DNA of 64,000 bases, taken from NCBI RefSeq assembly GCF_014281055.1, contig NZ_JACRSE010000004.1, forward strand, positions 248,001-312,000. The letters run 5' to 3'. Position 1 is the first letter of the stretch; each line of letters begins with the position of its first letter. A program made the position numbers and the translations under genes. Positions 6,055 to 21,532 of the stretch are shown here, piece after piece. The stretch is from Fluviispira vulneris. GTDB taxonomy: Bacteria > Bdellovibrionota_B > Oligoflexia > Silvanigrellales > Silvanigrellaceae. The notes beneath the pieces are model-generated. The model did no database searches. It saw only the letters and a program-made list of their open reading frames with translations, and was not told the DNA's origin.

Positions 6055-7703
6055 AAATCAGCATATTTTTAATTTTTGCTTTATTGATGAATTATATTTC
6101 AGCATTTGCAAGTTCAGCATTGCTTTGCCATGATGGATATATCGATAACAAAAGACCAGCAATTCCATTCGTACCTTTTCGTATGACAGATAATAAAACA
6201 GATAGAGAATTATCACCAGATGATATAATCACAGCAATCGACCGCAATGGAAAAAGTTATCAAGTCAAAGCGGAAGAGTTTTTTTCAAACTTAAATTCAA
6301 TAGAATATGGCTTAAATCAATGGGGATATTCTCTTCGAGATTCAACAGGAAGTTACAATCTCAGTTCGCTTGATTCATGCCTAAAACTTTTAGAAAATCA
6401 AAGAGAAGTTATTAAAAAAAACCTTATTGATGAGCCTGTAAATGAAGTGTTAAAGTACGATGATTGGAAAAAAAAAGTACAGCTTATAAATGAAGAGCAG
6501 AAAAAAAAATATCCACGCTTTACTGATCTTATCAAGTATAGAGATCCAGATAAATATAATGAATACACTTCAAAAGTAAACGCCTTCGATGTACCACGCC
6601 CTCTCCTTAAGAAAGTAGCTATGACTGTTTTTAAAAAAAGTAAAAATTGGGTTTTCGAGAAAGGAGAAATATCTAAATTTTTAATCGGTGGGAGTGCAGG
6701 ATATGGTGTTAAAGCTAGCCATCTCGAAGCTTCGAGTTTTGCTCATATGACAATTGATGCTGCTATGCTGAATATTTGGCACGGCAGTGTTTTAAGTGCT
6801 AAAACAAGCGCAAGTTCGCCAGGTACAGGCATGGGAAGCCTCAGCCTTTCAGTTAATATTTTTGGTGCTACTTTATTTGCCGTAGACAATGATTTAGATA
6901 AAAGTGTTTATGCAAATGAAAAAGAGTTTATAAATACTCCGCTGAATATAGAAAAATCAACACATTTTACTCTTGGCCCCATTCCAATCCGCTTATCTCT
7001 TGGCATGCGCGGTAGTAACACAATGCGATGGGGACTCGACGCAAGACCTTTGCAATTACAAAGTTTCTTACAGCATTATGCAGAACTCGATGCATATGCT
7101 GTCGCAGCTGTCGATATTTTAATTGCAGGTGTCGGAGTGCATGGAAGACTATTACTCATTTCAGTAAATACACACATTTCAGGTAACGCTCACGTTGAAT
7201 ACAATGACACCCTTTATTTTAAATTAAATCTTGTCGGAAAAACAGATGTTCATACACTATTTGGAGATTTAAAACTTGTTGCTTATGCATATCTTCCCAC
7301 TTTACAGTTCTGGAAGGGTATTTTAGAAAAAAAAGAATGGTTTAAACGTCTTGGAGAATATCCGGGCTTTAAATACTCTGGTAATATTTTTGACTATTCT
7401 GCAACGCTTTCTCCCACAGGTTTTAGTGCAAAAGGTCAGCTCAGCATAGAAGATGTAAATGATCACGTGCAAATTAAAAAAAGTGTGACTCGCAGAGAAG
7501 CCATTCTTTCTCTAGAAGATGCCACTCGAAAAAGAGCAAAAGAAACTTTTGAGTCGATTGAAGCAGACTTTAACAGCGAAAATAACAAAATATTATTGTC
7601 TGAAGACGAACTCTTAAAGAATCATTCTATTCGAATGAATAATATTTTCAATGATTATGAAAATGAATTAAAAGCAATTGATCACATTGCCGAATATTTG
7701 TGA
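6051..7703 (+). CDS. Secreted beta-rich protein, second gene of duplicated cassette (copy 1)
   Basis: A 550-residue protein with an N-terminal signal peptide (cleavage probably after the AFAS region). It is paralogous over its full length to the product of 18051-19709. Shared blocks include PAIPFVPF (near residue 37), QWGYSLRD, SYNLSxLD, AFDVPRP, NWxFEKGE, GPIPxR, LQHYAxxDAYAxAAVD and GNIFDYSATLSPTGF. The middle half alternates hydrophobic and polar residues as in large beta-sheets; the last 70 residues are a charged helix. No catalytic motif is recognised. Strict co-conservation with the overlapping upstream gene implies that the two products act together, probably at or outside the outer membrane. 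Confidence 0.85.
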   Translation: MKISIFLIFALLMNYISAFASSALLCHDGYIDNKRPAIPFVPFRMTDNKTDRELSPDDIITAIDRNGKSYQVKAEEFFSNLNSIEYGLNQWGYSLRDSTGSYNLSSLDSCLKLLENQREVIKKNLIDEPVNEVLKYDDWKKKVQLINEEQKKKYPRFTDLIKYRDPDKYNEYTSKVNAFDVPRPLLKKVAMTVFKKSKNWVFEKGEISKFLIGGSAGYGVKASHLEASSFAHMTIDAAMLNIWHGSVLSAKTSASSPGTGMGSLSLSVNIFGATLFAVDNDLDKSVYANEKEFINTPLNIEKSTHFTLGPIPIRLSLGMRGSNTMRWGLDARPLQLQSFLQHYAELDAYAVAAVDILIAGVGVHGRLLLISVNTHISGNAHVEYNDTLYFKLNLVGKTDVHTLFGDLKLVAYAYLPTLQFWKGILEKKEWFKRLGEYPGFKYSGNIFDYSATLSPTGFSAKGQLSIEDVNDHVQIKKSVTRREAILSLEDATRKRAKETFESIEADFNSENNKILLSEDELLKNHSIRMNNIFNDYENELKAIDHIAEYL

Positions 7704-7737
7704 TCAAAAAATAGAATAATGAGACATTAAATCTTTA

Positions 7738-8523
7738 CTATTGATGAGCATCATTCCCCTTTTTTTTTATAAGGTCAGTCAGTTTTTTGAATTCATCCGT
7801 TTGCTTAAATGATTCTATAGCATCCTGAACTATGCCTATTAATTTGGATGAGGTCCTTGATGTAGTCCCAATGTATTTATCAAATGTTGCAATTGGATCA
7901 CCAATAACAAAATCTTTCTGAGTTAAATTTTCTTCTTTTGCTAGGGTATTCATTGCATAAGAAGCAACTATATCAATCGTAAACCAAGTATCGATTCTAT
8001 TGCCAATCAGTTTTTTAAAATTTCTAAGATCTTCTGGATTTTCACTAATATTTTCGATATTAATTCCATTTTCAGGTCTTATGAGCATCGCTCTATATGA
8101 AGAGGCACTCAGAACACCTATAGTTGAATTTTTAGCTTCCTGTATTGAATTAATTCTACGTCCTTTTTTCATTGAAACGAAGACAGGATGCGCAGAATAT
8201 ATTTTTGAAACCCAAATAAATTTTTCTTCTCTTTCAGGAATCCTTGTTAAAGGAATAATAAAAGTTTTCATATCCTTATTGTCTAAAGCTTCTTTATAAG
8301 CTCTTGCCCAAGGACGCCATTCCAATTTTATTTTTATATTTTTTGCTTTAAATGCTTTTGCAATTATTTTTCCTCCTAAACCTCCCAGCTTGCCACCCGC
8401 AGTTTCTTCAACTTCTCCTACAAAACCTGGGTCAGCATATAAAGTGATTTCAGTACAAAATCCTTTTAAACAGAAAAATAAATTTAGGATGAGAATGACA
8501 TATGTTTTTTTCTGAATACTCAT
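7738..8523 (-). CDS. Periplasmic solute-binding protein, SBP_bac_3 family, orphan
   Basis: A 261-residue exported protein: signal peptide to about residue 23, then ITLYADPGFVGEVEETAGG, which resembles the first strand of family 3 amino-acid-type binding proteins, followed by a WRPWARAYKEAL segment and a hinge-type NIENISENPEDLRNFKKL region. Such proteins bind small polar ligands and deliver them to an ABC permease or a sensor. No permease or ATPase gene is adjacent, so it may act as a free-standing binder. The start ATG has AGGAGG upstream. It is convergent with the cassette at 4918-7703. Confidence 0.8.
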   Translation of the reverse strand: MSIQKKTYVILILNLFFCLKGFCTEITLYADPGFVGEVEETAGGKLGGLGGKIIAKAFKAKNIKIKLEWRPWARAYKEALDNKDMKTFIIPLTRIPEREEKFIWVSKIYSAHPVFVSMKKGRRINSIQEAKNSTIGVLSASSYRAMLIRPENGINIENISENPEDLRNFKKLIGNRIDTWFTIDIVASYAMNTLAKEENLTQKDFVIGDPIATFDKYIGTTSRTSSKLIGIVQDAIESFKQTDEFKKLTDLIKKKGNDAHQ

Positions 8524-9217: not shown

Positions 9218-10612
9218 ATGAATCTTTTAAAATCAATTCTGATTCTTTTATCAACGCTAATTATTTCTTGTAAGCCAACAAAAGATGAACACAAAACATC
9301 TGAAAACTTTAGTATAATTAACAATTGGAACGATCCGAACCCTGCTCTAACGAGTGAAATCAATACATTTTTGCAAAGTAAAATGAATAATATACCCCCC
9401 TGTACTGAAGAGAATGTAAAAAATCATCCAAACTGCAGGCTTGAAAAAATTGAAGCAGGAACAGCGGAACCACTGCCAAGTAGTAAAGGTTACCGAGTAA
9501 TGCTAATAGATAGCCAAGGCATGATGCTAGCTGCATATACACGCTATCGAAATAGAGTTTTAGAAAATATATTCGAAAATGAAAAGACTGGAGAATATAA
9601 TGCACGGCCACCAGCTTTATATATTCCTCAAGCTGCAAAGGAAATTTTATTAGACTCTTTTGAGAATCCTGCCTATGAAAAAATCCCTTCTGAGCTTTTA
9701 ACTCCAAGTATGGATACATTTATTGAAAAATTTCCATTTTTAAATTCTAGCACAGGACATGGAGTTATTATTTTCAATTATTTAGCTAATAATTCTCCCA
9801 ATAGCCAATTTGTTTTAGTACATGAAAACGATAGTAAATTCAATAGTATTTTATGTGGTAATGAAACAGAAAACAATAAAATAATAAAAATTAGTAAATT
9901 ATTTGACAAACAAACACAAAGTATTTTAGCGAAAATAAAACAATATGATATTAATTTTATCTCCTATTCTAGGGGCTATAGTACGAAATCATTGCAGAAT
10001 ATCTTAGACGGAAACGAATGCAGAAAAGTTTCACTTGAATTAATTAAAAATATCAATCAAATATATTTTAAGCATTTTTTAGAACCTTTAACTACAAAAT
10101 CAAAAGCGCTTCTAGTTCAAGCAAACCACCCTTCAAGTTATAAGATAAAAACTATCAATGATGAAAATTTTTATTCAGATTGCCAAGAATTAACCAATAG
10201 AGTTCGGGTTGGTACCGCCAATATTCTTGAGCAACCCCTTCCATTTGAAGGAAGTAAAAATATAAAATATCTAAATGAATACGAGAAGAATGCAAAACTC
10301 TGTACAGATTTATATATCAATTTTGCTGTTGAAACAAAAAGACCATTTCGCTATAATAAAGGAGTAATTCATATATCAAAAAGTAACATTGGCACTTCTC
10401 CAGTTTCTGGTCCTGATATTCATTCTTCCCATGCGACTCCTGTTGCAGTGGCTTATCTTATAAATTTAAAAATGCAATTAAAAAATGACTACCCTAATAA
10501 TGAGCTTTCGAATGACATGCTTTTAAAAAAACTATATGAAAATAATAATTTTATATTCGATCCAAGTTTACATAAGCAATTACCTATATACGAACTTCGA
10601 CTCTTAAAATAA
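9218..10612 (+). CDS. Lipoprotein with divergent subtilase-like (S8) domain, paralog 1
   Basis: A 464-residue lipoprotein (lipobox LIISC, Cys18). Motifs follow the order of a subtilisin: GYRVMLIDSQG (Asp98, compare the DTG motif), TGHGVIIFNYLAN (His181, compare HGTHVAG) with SPNSQFVLV downstream as in the usual P-N-A-x-L strand, NFISYSRGY (compare VINMSLG), ALLVQAN (Asn303, oxyanion hole), NRVRVGTAN (compare the VGA strand) and SSHATPVAVAYL (Ser404, compare GTSMATPHVAG). All four positions are kept in the two paralogs at 10622-12153 and 14040-15473. Spacing between motifs is larger than in subtilisin. I infer an exported, membrane-anchored serine protease; the S8 assignment is by eye and needs structure prediction. 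It is followed after nine bases by its paralog. Confidence 0.65.
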   Translation: MNLLKSILILLSTLIISCKPTKDEHKTSENFSIINNWNDPNPALTSEINTFLQSKMNNIPPCTEENVKNHPNCRLEKIEAGTAEPLPSSKGYRVMLIDSQGMMLAAYTRYRNRVLENIFENEKTGEYNARPPALYIPQAAKEILLDSFENPAYEKIPSELLTPSMDTFIEKFPFLNSSTGHGVIIFNYLANNSPNSQFVLVHENDSKFNSILCGNETENNKIIKISKLFDKQTQSILAKIKQYDINFISYSRGYSTKSLQNILDGNECRKVSLELIKNINQIYFKHFLEPLTTKSKALLVQANHPSSYKIKTINDENFYSDCQELTNRVRVGTANILEQPLPFEGSKNIKYLNEYEKNAKLCTDLYINFAVETKRPFRYNKGVIHISKSNIGTSPVSGPDIHSSHATPVAVAYLINLKMQLKNDYPNNELSNDMLLKKLYENNNFIFDPSLHKQLPIYELRLLK

Positions 10613-10621
10613 GGATTTTTT

Positions 10622-12153
10622 ATGTCACTCAATTTTAAATTATTCTTAGCTCTTTTTTTTAATTTCTCAAAACAAATGCATACAATAAAAAAAATAACAA
10701 AGATTAATATAAATAGAAATGGTTTTATGCAAATCGAACTTGATAAATTAAAAACTTATATCTACTTAATTTTAGCAATTTTTTTGATTACAAGCTGTGG
10801 TACAAAACATAATAATTTGAACTTAGTAAAACATTGGGAAAATACTGGCAATTGGGAAGATCCAAACCCTGCACTTACAAATGAAGTAAATTCCTATATT
10901 CAAAGTAAAGCATCTCTTTTAGAACCTTGCACAAAAGTAAATGCTTCTACCGATCCGAATTGTGAATTAATTCCTATTTTCCTGGTGAAGCGACTGAAAA
11001 AAGTAGTAGTTTAGGTTATCGGGTGATGATCATAGATGATGATGGCATGATTCCTGCAGCATACACTCGTTACAGAGGAAGAGTTTTAAAAAATTATTTT
11101 GAGGATGAAACAACGGGTCAACTAAAAGAATCTACCATAAGTATAAAAATTCCAAGAGCAGCAAAGGAAATACTATTAGATACCTTTCAAAATCCAGCGT
11201 ATGAAAAAATGCCTTCTGAGCTTTTAAGACCAAGCTCAAAAATATTTCGGGAGAAATTCAGTGATATGATATACTCCTTGAATCTTATTGGTCATAGTAC
11301 CTTGATCTTTAACTATATTGCAAATAACAGTCCAAATAGTCAGTTTGTCTTGATTCACTCAGGAATGAATAAATTTAATCAAATATTTTGCTCGAACGAT
11401 TTATCAGAAAAAGAAAAAATAAATAATATAAGCGCTCTCTTTAAATCACAATCTGATGATATAATTGAAATCATAAATAAATACAAAATAAATTTTATTT
11501 CTTATTCCCGTGGATATCATTATGATTCTTTAAGAAAAATTGCTGATAAAAATGATTGCAAAAACACTTCAAATGCACTTATTAAAGCAACAAATGAAGT
11601 GTATTTTAAGTCATTTTTACAACCCTTAACAACTCAAACCGAAGCTATTTTAGTACAATCCAATAAAGCTTCAAATAATAAAATTAAATCACTTACTGAT
11701 GAAAATTATTTTTCAGACTGTCAAAAACTCGATAATAGAGTTAGAGTAGGTCCAGTCAATGACTTTAGTCTCTCAATTCCATTTCAAGGAAGTGATAACT
11801 TAAAACTACTGGATTATTCCGAAAAAAATGTTAGGATTTGTACAGATATTTATATAAACTTTGCTGTAAAAAATTATTTTCCTTATACTCAATATAGAAA
11901 TAGCGTGGTACAAACATCACAAATAAATTTAGGCACTACACCTATTATGTTCGAAGGTAGCTCTAGTTCCAATGCAACCCCTGTCGCTGTCACTTATTTA
12001 ATGTATCTTAAGATGCAATGGCAGAAACAAAATCCTTATAGAATAATAACAAATAAAATGCTTTTAAATGAATTGTACTTAAAAAGAAATTTTATATTTG
12101 ACCCAAGTTTATATAAACAGCTCCCAATCTATGGACTTGGTCACTTGCAATAA
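10622..12153 (+). pseudogene. Subtilase-like lipoprotein, paralog 2, broken by a -1 frameshift
   Basis: Two frames together match the full length of paralogs 1 and 3. The first frame runs to a stop at 11014 and contains the lipobox (LITSC), the NWEDPNPAL motif and DPNC. The second, continuing from about 10981 (first ATG 11023), carries Asp (IIDDDG), His (IGHSTLIFNYIAN), Asn (ILVQSN) and Ser (SSNATPVA). Adding one T to the TTTT at 10977-10980 restores one frame through PGEATEKSSSLGYRVM, exactly the paralog order. ATG 10622 has AAGGA upstream; ATG 10727 fits the lipoprotein signal peptide better. Either it is a recent pseudogene or there is a sequencing error in the T run. The downstream frame alone would lack an export signal. 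Confidence 0.8.
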
Positions 12154-12490
12154 AAAAGATAAATTACAGAAAAATTTTATTTTAAAATAATAATATAAAT
12201 AAAAAATTTTATTTATTGAGACATAAATCTATTTGTAATAAATAAATTTAAATAATAATTATTTATTTTATAAAATGCGTCATTTAATTGACACATTCTC
12301 ATAAAAAAAGAACCATAAAAATTGCTTACCAATATAAGTAAAATTTCAAGAAAATACAATAGATATCGAAATAACTATTTTTACTGTTATAAAAAATAAT
12401 CTCAAAATCCAAATTAAATGAAGCTTGTATATGAACTAGCATAACTTATATATTACAAGCATAAATTTTTGCCACTAAGAGGAGATAACT
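12154..12490. other. AT-rich 337-bp intergenic region before the Hint-gene operon
   Basis: No gene is visible. It probably carries the promoter of the long co-directional run that starts at 12491; TTGACA occurs near 12289, but a good -10 box at correct spacing was not found. A strong ribosome site (AGAGGAG) sits at the end. Confidence 0.5.
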
Positions 12491-13276
12491 ATGTTTAATA
12501 AAAGATATAATCATTTTTATTTTAGATTTATTATATTGATAGCTTCTCTCACTTTAGGTTTTCAAGCTTATGCTAATAGAATAACGGGACCATCAGACAA
12601 AAATGGCAGATGCACTGAAAATTTAGGTGGTGGTGCATGCCAAGAAGAAAGAGAATATGCTTTAAAAGCGGGATGCATAACCCAAGATGAATACAATTCA
12701 CTTGTTGGTTATAATTCTTATCCAATTTGTGACAGAAAGAACATTCTAAGAGCTTGGTGCTCATGTGGATGCTTTGAAGAAAGCACACGCATTTTTAGCT
12801 TCGAAGCCCTCACCAATGATATTGGTTATATTCCTATTAAAAAAATAACTGCAGACAGCAAAAAATATAATGTTGCAAGTGTAAAAGCAGACGCTTCTTT
12901 ATCACAACTGAATGTCGGTCTATACAATTTAATTTCAACAACCAGTGGACCAGAGGCAGATCCTCTCATCGTTTTTAAAACGCAAAATGGTTTGCGTCTC
13001 GCAGTTACAAAAGAACATGCTATTTTACTTGCTGATGGCAGAATGGTCGCAGCAAAAAATGTTAAATTAACTGATGCATTGGTTCTTGCAAATGGAAGAC
13101 CTATTGCCATAAAATCAATCGAATCTCTCAAGACAGATAAGAATGTTCTCAATTTATTGACGTCAGGAAAATCAAATTTAGAGCACACTCTCTTTGCAGA
13201 AGGCCTCATCGTTGGTGATTTGGCTTGGCAAAATAACTTAAAAAATATGTTAAATGCCATTGCGATAAGACAATAG
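12491..13276 (+). CDS. Secreted Hint-domain (Hedgehog/intein-type) autoprocessing protein
   Basis: A 261-residue protein. Signal peptide to about residue 28, then a short Cys-rich segment (Cys41, 50, 62, 80, 90, 92), then a Hint fold from Cys94. The Hint signs are CGCFEESTRIFSFEA (nucleophile Cys94 followed by the usual x-x-x-T strand), LAVTKEHAILLADGRMVAA (Thr173/His176, block B) and EHTLFAEGLIVGDLAWQN (C-terminal block). Hint domains make an internal thioester at the first Cys and cleave or esterify the upstream segment. There is no C-extein, so protein splicing is not expected; a Hedgehog-like release of a roughly 65-residue Cys-rich peptide is. Start ATG has AGGAG. First gene of a run with very short gaps. 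Confidence 0.75.
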   Translation: MFNKRYNHFYFRFIILIASLTLGFQAYANRITGPSDKNGRCTENLGGGACQEEREYALKAGCITQDEYNSLVGYNSYPICDRKNILRAWCSCGCFEESTRIFSFEALTNDIGYIPIKKITADSKKYNVASVKADASLSQLNVGLYNLISTTSGPEADPLIVFKTQNGLRLAVTKEHAILLADGRMVAAKNVKLTDALVLANGRPIAIKSIESLKTDKNVLNLLTSGKSNLEHTLFAEGLIVGDLAWQNNLKNMLNAIAIRQ

Positions 13277-13302
13277 TTTTATCGCATTATTTAGGAATAA
13301 CC

Positions 13303-14028
13303 ATGAAAAAAAAGATTTTAATTGCAAGTGTATTTGTCTTAACTATTTTTTTCATTTCAAGAAATCTCATTCAAACAGCTCCTGATCCTGTCAAAATCAA
13401 TAATTCAATGAAAAAGGATAAAGGCGAAAATATTGAAAAAACAACTTTAAATAAAAATTCTGCCAAAAAAAATGAGCTCTTCACTCAAGAGGAGCTAAAT
13501 AATACTGCGCATTTTATTAAAAGTATGAAAAATGAGTATACAAAATTACAGTTTGAAAATGATTTTCACACTCTTGTTTTACAATCCTATCATCAGAATA
13601 ATAATATAGCGCAAATATTTAAAAATATTATTTTAGACAATAATTTTGCTCTCGAACTGAGTAAGGAAGATCAAGCTTACGCAAGAGTTTTTGCTATCCA
13701 AGGCTTAAAAGAAATTGCTTTAAAATACGATAAAGAGCCTCTACTTCAAACAATGCAAGAGCTCAGCTCTTATTTACAAAATAAAACTGTTCTAGCCAAA
13801 GGAGAACAAGCAGATTTAGAAGATCTCTTACGTGGCTATTTATCTATATCTGATCCAATAAATATTGAAGAAAATATTGAACTGCATTTGGCAAAAATGG
13901 GATTTAATAAAGATATGAAAAATAGAGAAATTTATGATATTTACGATCAAACTCTCTATTTTTTTTTAGTTGAAAAGCTGGGTCGCGAGAAAGCAAAAGA
14001 ATTGCTTGGAAAATTTCTTGACACATAA
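13303..14028 (+). CDS. Membrane-anchored helical periplasmic protein, unknown
   Basis: A 241-residue protein with an uncleaved-looking N-terminal anchor (residues 4-21), a Lys/Asn-rich linker to about 55 and a helical domain to the end (for example ARVFAIQGLKEIALKYD, LLQTMQELSSYL). No conserved motif or family is recognised. Anchor-linker-helical layout is seen in membrane-tethered foldases and chaperones, and it lies between the Hint gene (26 bases before) and a subtilase-like lipoprotein gene (11 bases after), but a chaperone role is only a guess. Ribosome site TTAGGA precedes ATG 13303. Confidence 0.75.
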   Translation: MKKKILIASVFVLTIFFISRNLIQTAPDPVKINNSMKKDKGENIEKTTLNKNSAKKNELFTQEELNNTAHFIKSMKNEYTKLQFENDFHTLVLQSYHQNNNIAQIFKNIILDNNFALELSKEDQAYARVFAIQGLKEIALKYDKEPLLQTMQELSSYLQNKTVLAKGEQADLEDLLRGYLSISDPINIEENIELHLAKMGFNKDMKNREIYDIYDQTLYFFLVEKLGREKAKELLGKFLDT

Positions 14029-14039
14029 AGGTTTCTTAA

Positions 14040-15473
14040 ATGATCAAAATAAAACTATTATTAGTCAGCTTATCGCTTGCAACAGTGGGCTGCGGAGTTG
14101 CAGAAACAAATTTTAGTTTGGTAAATTCCAGCGAACCGGAAGACAACTGGAGCGATCCCAACCCTGCATTGAGCAATGAAGTAAACGCTCTCATCCAAAG
14201 TAAGTTGCTGCAAATAAATCCATGCACTAAAAAAAATGAAAATTCGGATCCAAATTGCATTCCTGTCGAGGTTAAAACAAGCAATAATAATTCTTTTGCA
14301 AATAATAATAGCTTAGGATATCGCATATTACTTGTAGATAACGGAATGCAAGTTGCTGCACTCACACGCTATAAAGATCGGGTTTTAAAAAATCTTGTTG
14401 AAGATAAAAAAACAGGAGATTATATCGATAAAGAAATTAGTTTTAAAATTCCATTAGCAGCCAAAGAAGTTTTAGAAAAAACTTTTGAAAATCCAACTTA
14501 CAATAATATTCCTTCAGAATTATTAAAACCAAGTTCGAATATTTTTAATGAAAAATTTCTGCATATGATTGAATATATCAATACCTCTTTAGACTTCACA
14601 GGCCCCCCACATGGACTTACAATTTTTAATTATTTAGCAAATAATATCCCGAATAGTCAGTTTGTTTTAGTCTATGCAACTGAAAATAAATTAACAGAAA
14701 TCCTGTGTGATAACGAAATGAGTGAAGATAAAAAATTGGAACATTTAAAATTGATATTTCAAAACCAAGCAAGCAGACTCATAAATGAGATAAAAGAAAA
14801 TAATATTAGCTTTCTTTCTTTTTCTAAGGGATATTCTAACAAGCAATTAAAAAAAATAGTCAAAGATGAGGGAAGCAAATGCTCTTATGTTTCAGATAAT
14901 TTAATGACAAAAATTAACAAAGCATATTTTCATAGCTACCTCAAATCACTAACCACAAAAACCGATGTAATTCTAGTACAATCAAATTTAGAAGCCGACT
15001 ATTATGTCGATCCTAAGAAAGATAGCAATTATTACTCGGACTGTCAGGAATTAAAAAATAGGATAAGAGTTGGAGCAGCAAATAACTTAACAAACTCCAT
15101 TCCGCCTTTAGGAAGCCATAACATAAGCATATTAGATAATTTCACGAAAAATTCTGAATTATGCACTGAAATGTATATTAATTTTGCAGTACAAAAGAAA
15201 AGACCTTTTTTTTATAACAAAGGCGTTATTCAACTATCATCATTTAATATTGGAACAGAAGCAGCGACAGGTTTTGAAATATCATCATCAAACGCCACTC
15301 CAGTCGCTCTTTCCTACCTTATTTATTTAAAAATGCAACTTGAAAAAGCCAATCCTGGCAAAGAGATAAGTAATGAAATGCTCATCAAGCGTTTGCAGGA
15401 AAATAATAATTTTATATTCGATCCAAGCTTGCACAAGCAATTGCCAATTTATGAGTTAGGATATTTAAAATAA
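14040..15473 (+). CDS. Lipoprotein with divergent subtilase-like (S8) domain, paralog 3
   Basis: A 477-residue lipoprotein (lipobox TVGC, Cys18) homologous along its length to the product of 9218-10612. The candidate catalytic set is present: Asp100 (RILLVDNGMQVAA), His191 (PPHGLTIFNYLAN), Asn316 (VILVQSN) and Ser417 (SSSNATPVALSYL). The N-terminal NWSDPNPALSNEVN and PCTKKN...DPNC segments and the C-terminal NNNFIFDPSLHKQLPIYEL are shared by the three paralogs and are not part of a subtilase core; they may be a propeptide region and a cap. Gaps of 11 and 10 bases to its neighbours indicate an operon. Separation from the other two paralogs by the Hint gene suggests an ancient local duplication. 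Confidence 0.65.
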   Translation: MIKIKLLLVSLSLATVGCGVAETNFSLVNSSEPEDNWSDPNPALSNEVNALIQSKLLQINPCTKKNENSDPNCIPVEVKTSNNNSFANNNSLGYRILLVDNGMQVAALTRYKDRVLKNLVEDKKTGDYIDKEISFKIPLAAKEVLEKTFENPTYNNIPSELLKPSSNIFNEKFLHMIEYINTSLDFTGPPHGLTIFNYLANNIPNSQFVLVYATENKLTEILCDNEMSEDKKLEHLKLIFQNQASRLINEIKENNISFLSFSKGYSNKQLKKIVKDEGSKCSYVSDNLMTKINKAYFHSYLKSLTTKTDVILVQSNLEADYYVDPKKDSNYYSDCQELKNRIRVGAANNLTNSIPPLGSHNISILDNFTKNSELCTEMYINFAVQKKRPFFYNKGVIQLSSFNIGTEAATGFEISSSNATPVALSYLIYLKMQLEKANPGKEISNEMLIKRLQENNNFIFDPSLHKQLPIYELGYLK

Positions 15474-15483
15474 GGGAATACAT

Positions 15484-16065
15484 ATGAGCAAAAAAGTTAT
15501 TTTAAGTCTTTTCGGTTTGATTTTAATTAAGAGTGCATATGCTCTCAAAGTTGAGCCTTACAACAATTATACGCGATTTATTTTTGAACCAAAAGATTTT
15601 ATTGCCGCAAAAGGTAAGGTAAGTGACACTGCTTGGTATTATCCTGGTTATGAAGAATATAATGATTGTGCTGCAACTACTATTCCAATTTTTTTACCTA
15701 AAAAAGCATATATATCTGGTTATGTCACAATAAAATCAACTGCACACACTTGGATAGAATCTCCCCGTGATCTTGCCCGCATTCAACTTTTTAAAGTAAA
15801 AACATTTTCAAATTTTGCCGGCCTGAATCAGGAAATCATGACAGCGCCCTTTTATTTATCTGAATTACGGGATATTAAGACTCTCTATTTTAGTGGGAAT
15901 AGTTCTTATATTCAAGCTAAAACAGAAAATAATCAATTTATCTATTCAAAGTTAATGTTTGATAATCGCAACGAAGCTTGGGATAAAATAAGCTTTTGTT
16001 TGGCAAATATTTCTGAAAGGACTGAACTTTATATAAGCGCTTTAACAATTGACGCCATTTATTAA
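15484..16065 (+). CDS. Small secreted protein, unknown
   Basis: A 193-residue protein with signal peptide (cleavage near YAL, residues 19-21). The mature part has many aromatic and beta-prone residues (AYISGYVTIKSTAHTWIES, IKTLYFSG) and two cysteines, near residues 61 and 172, that could pair. Beta-sandwich character is plausible; no family recognised. It starts ten bases after paralog 3 and is followed after ten bases by another secreted protein, so it belongs to the same transcript. Confidence 0.75.
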   Translation: MSKKVILSLFGLILIKSAYALKVEPYNNYTRFIFEPKDFIAAKGKVSDTAWYYPGYEEYNDCAATTIPIFLPKKAYISGYVTIKSTAHTWIESPRDLARIQLFKVKTFSNFAGLNQEIMTAPFYLSELRDIKTLYFSGNSSYIQAKTENNQFIYSKLMFDNRNEAWDKISFCLANISERTELYISALTIDAIY

Positions 16066-16075
16066 GGAAATCAAT

Positions 16076-16867
16076 ATGAAATTAAAATATTTCTTTGTTC
16101 CTTTAGTATTTTCATTAAGTGCAAAGGGCTTTGCTTATAGCAATCTCCTGAAATGTGATTATGATGAATATTATAAAACGGCCTGTCGGATTGAGCCACT
16201 CGTGTTGAGTGAAAATGATCCTTACCAAATGGATTACTTAATAAAATATGAATATATCTGTGATGGACATAACTTTCAAGTTGGAGCTCAGACGGAAACA
16301 GGATATTACGATTTTACTAGAGGGAACAGCGTAAATTCAGTTACGGCTACAGGTCAAGCACGACTCATTATACAAGCTCTCGATCCAGAAAAACTCTATA
16401 ATAAAATTCTACAAAAAAATTGTTCTGTCCTTGTTAAAGAATTCAATCGCAGACCATCCATTCAGACATTAAATCAATGGACGCAGTACACAAAAATGGA
16501 AGTAACTTTGCTTTATTCGTATTTAGACAACTACACTTTAGCAAAGAATTTGGATGATATTGACAATTGGAATTTATCAAAACTTTTTCTTTTAAAAAAC
16601 AATTTACAGACTCTTGTACAAATCTATCCTCTCAATTTACATTATCGTACCCTTCTTCACACAATTGAAAGTGCCATTAAGAATAAACCTTCTAAAATAG
16701 AAATTCCGTCTGAGTCCAAAGAAGAATTGACAATTTATTATCGGAAAAAGCTTGAAAGTGAAATGGACAGCGCAACAAAAATTCTTGAAATATTTAAGCA
16801 GTGGAATGTTGTGTTTGAAAAAGATCTCGCAGCAGCAATCGAAGAAATTAAGAATTTTATAAACTAA
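16076..16867 (+). CDS. Secreted protein, unknown
   Basis: A 263-residue protein. I place the start at ATG 16076, because AAGGAA lies seven bases upstream and the signal peptide (MKLKYFFVPLVFSLSAKGFA) begins there; an in-frame ATG at 16049 would overlap the previous gene. The first 120 mature residues hold four cysteines (CDYDEYYKTAC, YICDGHNF, KNCSVL) and look beta-rich; the C-terminal half is helical and charged. No family recognised. Same operon as its neighbours. Confidence 0.75.
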   Translation: MKLKYFFVPLVFSLSAKGFAYSNLLKCDYDEYYKTACRIEPLVLSENDPYQMDYLIKYEYICDGHNFQVGAQTETGYYDFTRGNSVNSVTATGQARLIIQALDPEKLYNKILQKNCSVLVKEFNRRPSIQTLNQWTQYTKMEVTLLYSYLDNYTLAKNLDDIDNWNLSKLFLLKNNLQTLVQIYPLNLHYRTLLHTIESAIKNKPSKIEIPSESKEELTIYYRKKLESEMDSATKILEIFKQWNVVFEKDLAAAIEEIKNFIN

Positions 16868-18054: not shown

Positions 18055-19709
18055 AAAAATTGAAATTTTTTAATTATTACTTTTTTCTATCTTTTTTATT
18101 TCTAATTCACAGCTATACAACAGCACAGGCAAATGAATGTCCCAAAGATTTTATCGAGAATAAAAAACCAGCCATTCCTTTTGTTCCTTTTCCCATGAAG
18201 GATCCCGATACAGGCAAACCACTTTTGCCAGAAGACAAAATCACCATTGAAGATCGGGATGGAAAAAAATATGAAATAAAGGCCATAGATTTTTTTAACA
18301 ATGTCAATTCCATGGAATATTCACTTTCTCAATGGGGCTATTCTTTGAGAGACACTGAAGGGAGTTATAATTTAAGCACTCTCGACATATGTGCAAAACT
18401 TTTAGATAAACAAAAAGATATTATTGAAAAAGAATTAAGAAAAGATCCATCCAATAAAATATTATCTTACGATGAATGGCTAAAAAATATAAATGCAGCC
18501 CTCGATGCCTATAAAGTTGCCATTCCGAGTTTGGAAGACCTCGCAAAATATGGGAACGATGCCAAATTCGACGAATTTATATCCAATGTCAAAGCCTTTG
18601 ACGTTCCACGCCCTGAGCTAAAAAAAGTAGAATTAAAAAGTTTCAATAAAGTAAAAAACTGGTCTTTTGAGAAGGGGGAAAAATCCAAATTTTTTATTGG
18701 CGGACATGCAGGCTATAAAATTGCTGCAAGTAAGGTTGAAGTAGATGCCTTGGCAGATGCTGGTTTAGATGGCGCCGTTCTTGGCGTTTGGGAAGGGCAA
18801 ATTGCCAATGCCTATGCCAAAGCAAATTCTCCCGCAACTCAAAAAGGTTCATTGGATATAAATGCGAGTGTCTTTGGCAAAACACTTTATGTCTTTAAAG
18901 AAGAATTAAAAAATGACAATTATAAAGATGAAAAAATGCTATTTAACACTCCAGTGAGCTTAGAGCATTCCGTCCGTTTTATGATCGGGCCTATTCCTGT
19001 TCGTGTGGCTGTAGGATTACGTGGCAATAATTTTATGCGCTGGGGAGTGGAACTTGTTCCGTTACAGATTCAGACATATTTACAACATTATGCTGGCATA
19101 GATGCCTACGCTTCTGCGGCAGTGGATGCTTTTATTGCTGGAGCTGGTGCAAGAGGAAGGCTTATTTTAGTTGCTCTTGACACTCGTGTCACTGCAGGTG
19201 CGCTTGTTGAGTTTAATGATGTGCCAGAATTAAAACTAGAACTTGTTGGTACGACAGAGTTAAATACACTTCAAGGTGATATCAGTCTATTTGTTTACGC
19301 CTATGTTCCCACTTGGAAATTTTGGAAAGCATTTTTTGAACGCAAGGAATGGTCCATATCTTTATGGAAATCTCCAGGCTATGTGCTAAAAGGAAATATC
19401 TTTGATTATTCCGCAACTCTTTCCCCCACAGGTTTTCGCGCAAAAGGTGATTTAAGCGTCAGCGATGTAGCAGAACAGCTCGAAATTGATCGCAATTTGC
19501 AAAGAGAAAATAAAATAACCGACCTTGAAAATAAAACTCAGGAAAAGCTCAATGAAACATTCAATGCCATCGTCAACGACTTAAAAAGCGAAAACAATTT
19601 AAAAATTTTTAAAAATGAGGTATTTTATTCGGAGTCAGAAAAAAGCATAGAGAAGATCGTCGGAGATTATTTAACTGAACTTGAGAAATGGTCTGGGCAA
19701 AATATATGA
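18051..19709 (+). CDS. Secreted beta-rich protein, second gene of duplicated cassette (copy 2)
   Basis: A 552-residue exported protein, full-length paralog of the product of 6051-7703. Signal peptide to about residue 27. A helical region (45-190) with QWGYSLRDTEGSYNLS is followed by a long run of amphipathic beta-strands (about 205-450) including GLRGNNFMRWG, LQHYAGIDAYASAAVDAF and GNIFDYSATLSPTGFRAKG, then a charged helix. Large sheets of this kind occur in lipid-carrying and outer-membrane-associated proteins, but no family is recognised. It overlaps the upstream cassette gene and the downstream HEAT protein gene by four bases each (ATGA), so all three should be made in fixed ratio. Confidence 0.85.
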   Translation: MKKLKFFNYYFFLSFLFLIHSYTTAQANECPKDFIENKKPAIPFVPFPMKDPDTGKPLLPEDKITIEDRDGKKYEIKAIDFFNNVNSMEYSLSQWGYSLRDTEGSYNLSTLDICAKLLDKQKDIIEKELRKDPSNKILSYDEWLKNINAALDAYKVAIPSLEDLAKYGNDAKFDEFISNVKAFDVPRPELKKVELKSFNKVKNWSFEKGEKSKFFIGGHAGYKIAASKVEVDALADAGLDGAVLGVWEGQIANAYAKANSPATQKGSLDINASVFGKTLYVFKEELKNDNYKDEKMLFNTPVSLEHSVRFMIGPIPVRVAVGLRGNNFMRWGVELVPLQIQTYLQHYAGIDAYASAAVDAFIAGAGARGRLILVALDTRVTAGALVEFNDVPELKLELVGTTELNTLQGDISLFVYAYVPTWKFWKAFFERKEWSISLWKSPGYVLKGNIFDYSATLSPTGFRAKGDLSVSDVAEQLEIDRNLQRENKITDLENKTQEKLNETFNAIVNDLKSENNLKIFKNEVFYSESEKSIEKIVGDYLTELEKWSGQNI

Positions 19710-21532
19710 AGATTTTAAAATCAAAAATAATATTCTCATTCTTTCTTACACTTTTTATAATCGGCATAGCTTATTATTTAAATGGAAAATATTTTCAAAG
19801 GCACTATAAACTGAGTTGTAGACTGGGAGATAGAAAGTATTATGATGTCTCCTATGTCTCAACTGGATCAAGTGACTTAACCTTATTTCAATCCACCAAA
19901 CAAGCGTTTAAAATTGAATTCAAAGGAAAAGTTAAGGAAACATGCCTTGAAGATAAAGATGAGAGTATTTTTATTCAATATGATTTTAAAAATGCACATA
20001 CCTTTGTAAGAAATCAAGAAATTACTCAGCATCTGAAAGACAGTCATATTAATACCAATTTAGTTCTTGTTGATATATCTAAAAATGGAGTTATCAATGA
20101 GATTTATTTTAGCAAATATATTGATCCAACTATTAGTAATATTTATAGAGAATACATAGCAAATAGCTTTGTCAATTTTACAAATAAAGAAAACAACAAA
20201 AATGAATGGGAAAACAGCATTCAAAATTTCGCAGGTATAAGCCAATACGTTTATACAATTTTAAATGCAAGAGTGACGCGCAATTTTGTTGATGGAGATG
20301 GCCAAAATCAGTCCTTTTTATATGATGATGCCAAAAATATTAAAAAATATTATAGTAATGATTCTCAAACATTTTATAGCCTAGCTGCGAATAATATTCC
20401 TTTTTCTATTCGCATGAAAAGATATTTAAATTTATTTTTAAATAATAAACAAATTGGCTTTGAAGAAACCACATTTTATAAAAAACTGCAAGAAACAAAA
20501 AATACAGATTTAGCAAGTATTCAAAATAAGGTAAATTCTTTGAAAGGATCTGAATTCTATAAAACTGACCTTTTAGCAAAAGATGTTGAAGAGAGATTAA
20601 AAGAAAAGATTCTTTTACAAAATTTTAAATATACACAATTTACAGATTTTTTACGCCAAGCTGATTTAGAAAAAAAGGAAAACTATACAGAATATTTTTT
20701 ACAACTCAAATCTTTATTTAGTTTGGAACCTAAATCAACCAGCGATGCTATTCCATATCTGGCAAAATTAAATCAAATGAGCGATGAATTTTCTCTTGTT
20801 ATTTCTGCTTTAGTAAATGCAAATAACATAGAAAGCCAACAAGCAATGATTCAAACTTATTACTTGCTCACAGATAAAAAGGCTAAAATGGTTCTCCTTG
20901 CGAATTTGGCAACGAGTGAAAGTCCTGCAATTGAGACAGAAACATTTGCTCGCTCCTTTTTATCCATAAATGATCGAGACATTCGCAATACGGCTGTTCT
21001 AGCTTTAGGTAACATTGCTAGAAATTTAAATGGTAAAGATAATAATCGTAAAAATAATGTCTTCAATGATCTCACAAACGAAGTAAACTCAGCGCAAGAT
21101 CCGCATGCAAAAAGCGTTGCTCTCCTTGCACTTGGCAACGCAGCCGATGAAAGAGCTTTAGACAATATCAAAGCCAATCTTTCTGCACAAAATGAAGATG
21201 TGCGTAAATCAGCAGCATTTGCTTTGCGCTTTATAAATCGCAGTGAACCCGATCAAGCGTTAAATAATATTCTGCTTCATGACAAATCAGAAGCAGTTAA
21301 ATTGTCAGCTCTTGAAGCCATTGCCTATAGAAATCAAGCTCAGGAAATTATAGAAACGCAAAAGAAAATTCTTCGTTCTGATGTATCGGAAAAAATTAGG
21401 ATGCAAGCGCTTAAAAATCTTGCCCAAGCAGGGGAAAAAGAGGAAGTGAAATATGCAATGACGAATGATCTGTCAAAATCTGTCCGCACTTATGCTGAAA
21501 ATCTATTAACACGCTTTGAGAATAATCTGTAA
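19706..21532 (+). CDS. Membrane-anchored HEAT-repeat protein with vitellogenin-N-like front half
   Basis: A 608-residue protein; start ATG 19706 overlaps the previous stop as ATGA. An N-terminal anchor or signal (residues 8-25) precedes a beta-rich region (about 35-210). That region contains the sequence LVDISKNGVINEIYFSKYID followed by a helix and an NEWENSIQNFAGISQYVY block, an order that recalls the N-sheet of vitellogenin/MTP-type large lipid transfer proteins (GKI...NIKRG..., then E-x-x-x-G-x-C-x-x-x-Y). Residues 390-600 form HEAT repeats (for example RNTAVLALGNIARNL, AKSVALLALGNAADERAL, VRKSAAFALRFINRSE). The HEAT call is firm; the lipid-transfer call is an inference. It closes the coupled three-gene unit. 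Confidence 0.75.
   Translation: MKILKSKIIFSFFLTLFIIGIAYYLNGKYFQRHYKLSCRLGDRKYYDVSYVSTGSSDLTLFQSTKQAFKIEFKGKVKETCLEDKDESIFIQYDFKNAHTFVRNQEITQHLKDSHINTNLVLVDISKNGVINEIYFSKYIDPTISNIYREYIANSFVNFTNKENNKNEWENSIQNFAGISQYVYTILNARVTRNFVDGDGQNQSFLYDDAKNIKKYYSNDSQTFYSLAANNIPFSIRMKRYLNLFLNNKQIGFEETTFYKKLQETKNTDLASIQNKVNSLKGSEFYKTDLLAKDVEERLKEKILLQNFKYTQFTDFLRQADLEKKENYTEYFLQLKSLFSLEPKSTSDAIPYLAKLNQMSDEFSLVISALVNANNIESQQAMIQTYYLLTDKKAKMVLLANLATSESPAIETETFARSFLSINDRDIRNTAVLALGNIARNLNGKDNNRKNNVFNDLTNEVNSAQDPHAKSVALLALGNAADERALDNIKANLSAQNEDVRKSAAFALRFINRSEPDQALNNILLHDKSEAVKLSALEAIAYRNQAQEIIETQKKILRSDVSEKIRMQALKNLAQAGEKEEVKYAMTNDLSKSVRTYAENLLTRFENNL

Follow-up and report, generated by a model that had tools for sequence, protein, structure and literature searches.

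The window, a stretch of 64,000 nucleotides from Fluviispira vulneris, contains a gene for a secreted protein of 261 amino acids in which a small domain with six cysteines is followed by a C-terminal Hint domain. Self-cleavage before Cys94, the residue at which the Hint fold begins in the predicted structure, probably frees the N-terminal domain, which would then act together with a subtilase system encoded immediately downstream; the cleavage itself is a prediction. The best description of the protein is the group of bacterial proteins with C-terminal Hint-like domains defined by Bürglin (2008; PMC2362128), an assignment made by description. The six-cysteine domain and the subtilase cassette are new, both being absent from that description.

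The protein and its gene

The gene and the parts of its product are as follows.

12480–12484, + strand: probable ribosome binding site AGGAG upstream of the Hint gene, by sequence reading
12491–13276, + strand: Hint gene, ATG start, 261 aa, secreted Cys-rich N-domain and C-terminal Hint
12491–12574, + strand: signal peptide, residues 1–28, cleavage site approximate, from sequence, model helix and evolution rate
12575–12769, + strand: N-domain, residues 29–93, six Cys (41, 50, 62, 80, 90, 92); stand-alone forms exist
12770–13219, + strand: Hint core, residues 94–243, from model, fold comparison and conservation
13220–13273, + strand: tail, 18 residues (244–261), with invariant Gln247 (Q in 63/63)
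13261–13286, + strand: hairpin spanning the stop codon of the Hint gene, candidate attenuator or processing element

The three-part layout of signal peptide, six-cysteine segment and Hint domain, put forward in the original prediction, is borne out by the open reading frame, by an AlphaFold2 model with a mean pLDDT of 89.6 built on a 67-row alignment of relatives, and by the match to Hint folds described below. The signal peptide is hydrophobic and, judged by eye, ends at about Ala28, between QAYA and NR; in the model, residues 2–25 form a long hydrophobic helix. Cysteines of the 261-residue protein lie at positions 41, 50, 62, 80, 90, 92 and 94, and the N-terminal part was read correctly from the start as 65 residues with six cysteines between residues 41 and 92. 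The hairpin at the stop codon recurs in five related loci, where the arms vary and the pairing is kept in most. It may act in attenuation or processing and so raise expression of the Hint gene over that of the rest of the run.

The Hint domain

In the model, the Hint fold starts at Cys94. Structure prediction against Hint folds had been proposed as a check, and VIA-align matched the core (residues 94–243/248) to inteins with Z of about 19 (up to 19.4) and to the Hedgehog autoprocessing domain, 1AT0, with a Z of 17.4 and an rmsd of 1.9 Å over 133 residues. In the latter superposition residues 94–247 lie on 258–402, with Cys94 on Cys258; with the Mtu RecA intein, 94–243 correspond to 1–440, and residue 243 pairs with Asn440. 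On sequence alone, family profiles detect the domain only weakly, with scores under their cut-offs (PF14890, E 0.0078; TIGR01445, E 0.021, from residue 94). The best PDB profile match is a BIL domain, 2LWY, with an E of 1e-9.

The residues expected at the active site were located in the 67-row alignment, from which the row counts below were taken.

12770–12772, + strand: Cys94, predicted nucleophile of the N-S acyl shift (C in 64/67 rows)
13007–13018, + strand: block B motif T173-x-x-H176 (T173-K-E-H176), by conservation
13151–13153, + strand: Asn221 of a V-x-N motif, block F position (64/64 non-gap rows)
13214–13219, + strand: Gly242-Asp243, where inteins have a penultimate His and a terminal Asn, by alignment

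Position 173 is Thr in 60 rows and Ser in 4, and His176 is present in all 65 non-gap rows. Cys94 is preceded by Gly in 57 rows and by Ser in 8, and is itself kept in 6/6 full-length members from the genus. Gly242 is found in 63/63 rows, while position 243 is Asp in 58 and Ser in 5 of 63, and is usually followed by Leu rather than by Cys, Ser or Thr. At the sequence level, a G-P-E motif is also conserved near the region that would correspond to Asp303 of Hedgehog. Asp303 of Drosophila Hh represents the active-site Asp or His that activates cholesterol. Since the active-site positions are near-invariant in more than 60 relatives and the gene is under strong purifying selection, the Hint match is not a chance one, and the domain appears, from substitution patterns, to be under maintained selection.

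The residues of the acyl shift are thus kept and the His-Asn end is replaced by Gly-Asp or Gly-Ser; N-terminal cleavage is therefore the plain prediction. The claim that the Hint domain ends the protein with no C-extein holds insofar as there is no true C-extein and no His-Asn end; it requires amendment in that 18 residues follow Asp243.

Protein splicing was rejected as unlikely, the end reading Gly242-Asp243-Leu244 in place of His-Asn with a Cys, Ser or Thr extein.

The N-terminal domain

The N-domain module, for which 15 relatives were aligned, had no match in Pfam or the PDB in sequence and profile searches. It also occurs apart from an intact Hint domain. Fluviispira multicolorata has two complete copies without Hint and another that ends 15 residues into Hint, and in one copy the beginning of the Hint domain, Cys94 included, has been lost. 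A paralogue of the Hint gene (L012/L132; L132:10027–10608, + strand) shows an in-frame loss that removes Cys94 and the start of Hint, with N-domain and cassette intact.

The six cysteines are present in nearly all members. Where they change they do so in pairs: Cys62 and Cys80 are jointly absent from L060, and four paralogues in G017 have lost Cys92 and gained a cysteine at position 77. These paired changes would fit three disulfides that leave Cys94 free. Two close orthologues, L130 and L131, give dN/dS values of 0.015 (N-domain), 0.049 (Hint) and 0.24 (signal peptide), so that the N-domain is the most constrained section of the protein and the signal peptide the fastest-evolving; the cassette partners have values of 0.21 and 0.29. 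Because it occurs alone and has the lowest dN/dS, the N-domain is likely the product of importance, that is, the functional product of the gene.

The subtilase cassette

The Hint gene stands in a run of genes on the same strand.

9218–10612, + strand: paralogue of the subtilase-fold lipoprotein
10622–12153, + strand: further lipoprotein paralogue, third copy, split (ORFs 10622–11014 and 11023–12153)
13303–14028, + strand: cassette partner 1, helical protein of 241 aa with a membrane anchor (A5 family), adjoining the Hint gene in 7/7 genus loci
14040–15473, + strand: cassette partner 2, 477-aa lipoprotein of predicted subtilase fold (D100, H191, N316, S417), from model and neighbourhood
15484–16065, + strand: 193-aa secreted protein, with relatives in other cassettes (genus loci; similar genes recognized by eye in L157 and L160)
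16076–16867, + strand: secreted protein of the same run, conserved in L134
16921–18054, 18051–19709 and 19688–21532, + strand: three more secreted proteins of the run

The gap between the Hint gene and the helical gene is 26 bases, and that between the helical and lipoprotein genes is 11. The third lipoprotein copy, being divided into two ORFs, looks broken or frameshifted. In 7/7 genus loci the order is Hint gene, helical protein (about 245 aa, with a single membrane segment at the N-terminus) and a protein of about 470 aa, often with a lipobox. In nine loci from other families of the class the Hint gene adjoins a homologue of the 470-residue protein, and five of the nine also have the helical protein. 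Of the genomes that carry a window-type Hint gene, 9/9 have the subtilase family (seven recognized by N-domain profile, the others being G018 and G026, whose N-parts are more diverged), as against 1/49, a weak match, among those without (Fisher p about 1e-9, genome relatedness ignored). Congeners without the Hint gene also lack the subtilase.

The original prediction had drawn attention to a nearby lipid-transfer-like gene, which is likely the HEAT-repeat gene at 19688–21532. This link has turned out to be weak: the gene belongs to the same run, but the travelling partners of the Hint gene are the subtilase-fold lipoprotein and the helical protein. Among the genus loci compared, the HEAT-repeat gene is kept only in L134; unlike the subtilase, it is thus no constant companion of the Hint gene.

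The best 50 VIA rows for the lipoprotein model are all subtilases, with Z from 12.0 to 13.7, and Foldseek alone gave an E of 0.014. D100, H191, N316 and S417 occupy the positions of the subtilase triad and oxyanion Asn and are invariant in the genus. Among eleven members from across the class, H191 and S417 are invariant, D100 is Asp or Glu, and N316 varies. As modelled, the lipoprotein at 14040–15473 is a divergent S8 subtilase by its fold and, at the sequence level, by its Asp-His-Ser triad. The assignment comes from fold comparison. Pfam and PDB profile searches found no subtilase; these null searches, the modest model (pLDDT 71, pTM 0.77) and the oxyanion Asn, which is unconserved outside the genus, are points against a protease partner.

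In one distant locus (L166:3490–5115, + strand) a lipoprotein adjoining a small Hint gene has a match to MACPF of 16.6 bits, below the cut-off of 21.5. That some distant cassettes contain a pore-former is an idea suggested by this one sub-threshold match.

Alternatively, the N-domain could serve the neighbouring subtilase as a pro-inhibitor or chaperone, freed by Hint cleavage or by that protease itself, and the protease would be the real effector. Strict adjacency and co-occurrence of the two genes agree with such a role, and serine protease inhibition is common among small disulfide-rich domains. On the other side, the N-domain has no sequence likeness to a known inhibitor, and some subtilase paralogues occur without a Hint gene nearby. 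We regard this as a possible role, short of a probable one.

Proposed mechanism and alternatives

In the mechanism that we favor, release of the N-domain by self-cleavage, the product of the Hint gene would be exported as a precursor. The C-terminal Hint domain, through Cys94 with T173 and H176, would carry out an N-S acyl shift that activates the bond between Gly93 and Cys94, and we infer water or a small thiol as the agent that resolves the resulting thioester. The 65-residue N-domain, stapled by disulfides, would thus be freed, leaving the 168-residue Hint as a spent processing module. The freed domain would work at the cell envelope or outside it with the helical protein and the subtilase-fold lipoprotein; toward the latter, the predicted protease, its likeliest role would be that of a substrate, a ligand or a regulator. 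The L012/L132 paralogue is a point to the contrary, since it retains the N-domain and cassette although its Hint lacks Cys94.

Another point to the contrary is that the conservation of Hint extends right to the end of the domain, beyond the needs of a disposable cutter. It bears on the Hedgehog-like ligation that was originally raised as a possibility, in which a nucleophile other than water (a hydroxyl or amine on a lipid, a glycan or a surface protein) attacks the Gly93 thioester and so anchors the C-terminus of the N-domain. Ligation keeps a place in the argument because conservation at Gly242, Asp243 and Gln247 and in the tail exceeds what release needs; G242, D/S243, Q247 and a helical tail have persisted despite the loss of splicing, as if binding or positioning an acceptor. 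The layout and the GCF junction also agree with it, and sister Hint proteins lie in pseudopilin operons, where surface attachment is plausible. Against it, there is no match to the Hog HMM, a sterol-recognition region would not fit in so short a tail, and the data indicate neither an acceptor nor an adduct. The lipid adduct once suggested is not upheld: the 18 residues beyond the Hint core could not accommodate such a region, and the data give no sign of a lipid. On balance, ligation in some form is unlikely. The wider proposal of Hint as a ligation device, joining both the N-domain and the large surface proteins of pseudopilin operons to lipid, glycan or protein acceptors, is quite unlikely; if true, a Hedgehog-type reaction would be used by bacteria for surface display or for attaching to other cells.

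A further alternative is that Hint no longer cleaves and serves as a folded carrier or recognition domain, or as a switch locked by redox state through pairing of Cys94 with either Cys92 or Cys90. The cysteines at -2 and -4 could trap Cys94 in a disulfide, which would also count against cleavage; a C-x-C-G-C1 junction is found in many small members, and a redox trap between intein Cys1 and an upstream cysteine is on record (Callahan, 2011, as cited in PMC7765530). However, T/S173 and H176 match Cys94 in conservation even in large members without the upstream CxC, and the six cysteines of the N-domain change pairwise without involving Cys94. Loss of cleavage is accordingly held to be improbable.

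Processing of the polymorphic-toxin type, with Hint freeing a C-terminal piece, here the tail past Asp243, is very improbable: Asp243 stands at the last-residue position of inteins, and large members have sub-threshold matches to PT-HINT, but the tail has only 18 residues (0–37 in relatives) and contains an invariant Gln, the penultimate His is replaced by Gly, and position 243 is Ser in five rows. A terminal Asp is accepted by, and active in, some class 1 inteins (PMC7664689), and tail cleavage by the window protein is therefore unlikely, yet possible.

Relation to known Hint proteins

Secreted bacterial proteins with C-terminal Hint-like domains were described by Bürglin (2008; PMC2362128), who credited also Dassa and Pietrokovski. 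The group comes from Myxococcus, Stigmatella, Reinekea, Photorhabdus, Serratia and Yersinia and has two conserved cysteines (PMC2362128). The window protein resembles it in its signal peptide, its short cysteine-bearing N-terminal part, the position of Hint at the very C-terminus and a similar total size; it departs from the group in its six-cysteine N-domain and subtilase cassette, the published members being compared by description only.

With Hedgehog and Hog the protein shares the fold, the order of parts, the Gly-Cys-Phe junction, TxxH, the Asn of V-x-N and the lack of a His-Asn end. It differs in that the N-terminal part is unrelated to the Hedge domain and there is no sterol-recognition region. 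In the window genome (G000), PF01079 (Hog) had no match at an E of 0.01. The term Hedgehog-like is thus apt for the layout, the GCF junction and the acyl-shift residues, but not in the sense of membership in the Hog family.

BIL domains have the Hint fold, and the type A terminal motif is absent here as in type B; in contrast to BIL domains, the Hint of the window family is always at the end of the protein. A type C BIL domain of Bdellovibrio has been reported with a PPS-1 domain (Dori-Bachash, 2009, PMID 19153786, as cited in PMC9185962). Large members of the family fall just under the cut-offs for PT-HINT (PF07591; 25.9 of 27.7 bits) and Vint (PF14623; 26.3 of 27 bits). Unlike PT-HINT they have no toxin after Hint, the tail being 0–37 aa, and unlike Vint they have no VWA domain before it. 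The window protein falls in a separate, little-known bacterial family and not in Hog.

Two established classes were ruled out. BIL type A is excluded by Gly242-Asp243 in place of the C-terminal His-Asn, and a class 1 intein by Asp243 followed by Leu244 and a short tail, with no C-extein beginning with Cys, Ser or Thr.

Distribution in the phylum

Hint-profile matches were found in 37/58 genomes of the phylum. The domain is C-terminal in about 90 ORFs from the phylum, with a tail of 0–37 residues (median 9); longer tails in two alignment rows are alignment artefacts, and Hint is terminal there too. About half of the family is small (380 aa or less, with leader, cysteine-bearing part and Hint) and half is large. 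A search with the family alignment found no relatives in viral contigs. Outside the phylum, a 9-Mb genome (G085) encodes three small secreted proteins with C-terminal Hint that match the family profile (2.5e-30). Small secreted C-terminal Hint proteins of a 9-Mb genome outside the phylum were seen at L181:5188–6246 and 12155–13261 (+ strand), and are probably members of the group described by Bürglin.

Large terminal-Hint proteins with pilin-like leaders are encoded at L127:2851–5352 (- strand) and in L124, L125, L126, L128, L079, L082 and L083. In L127 both flanking genes are prepilin-like, with PF07963 (prepilin N-methyl motif) over the cut-off, and the gene neighbours in L124 and L128 resemble those of L127. 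These large proteins are possible pilus-tip proteins carrying Hint. Another protein (L147:3907–5622, + strand) is a trypsin-like protease, over the cut-offs for PF13365 and PF00089, with a Hint-like C-terminal part.

Two further genomes from the phylum, G020 and G024, have true Hog modules that score over the PF01079 cut-off. They encode four small secreted Hog proteins (L144:5934–6920 and 6886–7806, - strand; L145:5564–6418, + strand; L146:370–1332, + strand), which score 44–89 bits against a cut-off of 29.7 and have the motif APLT...A/C-SCxA. The contigs that encode these proteins carry ordinary bacterial genes.

Significance

Secreted bacterial proteins with C-terminal Hint domains have been on record since about 2005–2008, and no function for them was found in the literature covered. 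A terminal bacterial Hint now has a conserved genetic setting, a small defined product, orthologues and stand-alone forms of its N-domain, and the role of a terminal Hint toward its host protein is thereby directly testable. The phylum is rich in terminal-Hint proteins, and the Hog modules in two of its genomes bear on the origin of the Hog domain of Hedgehog.
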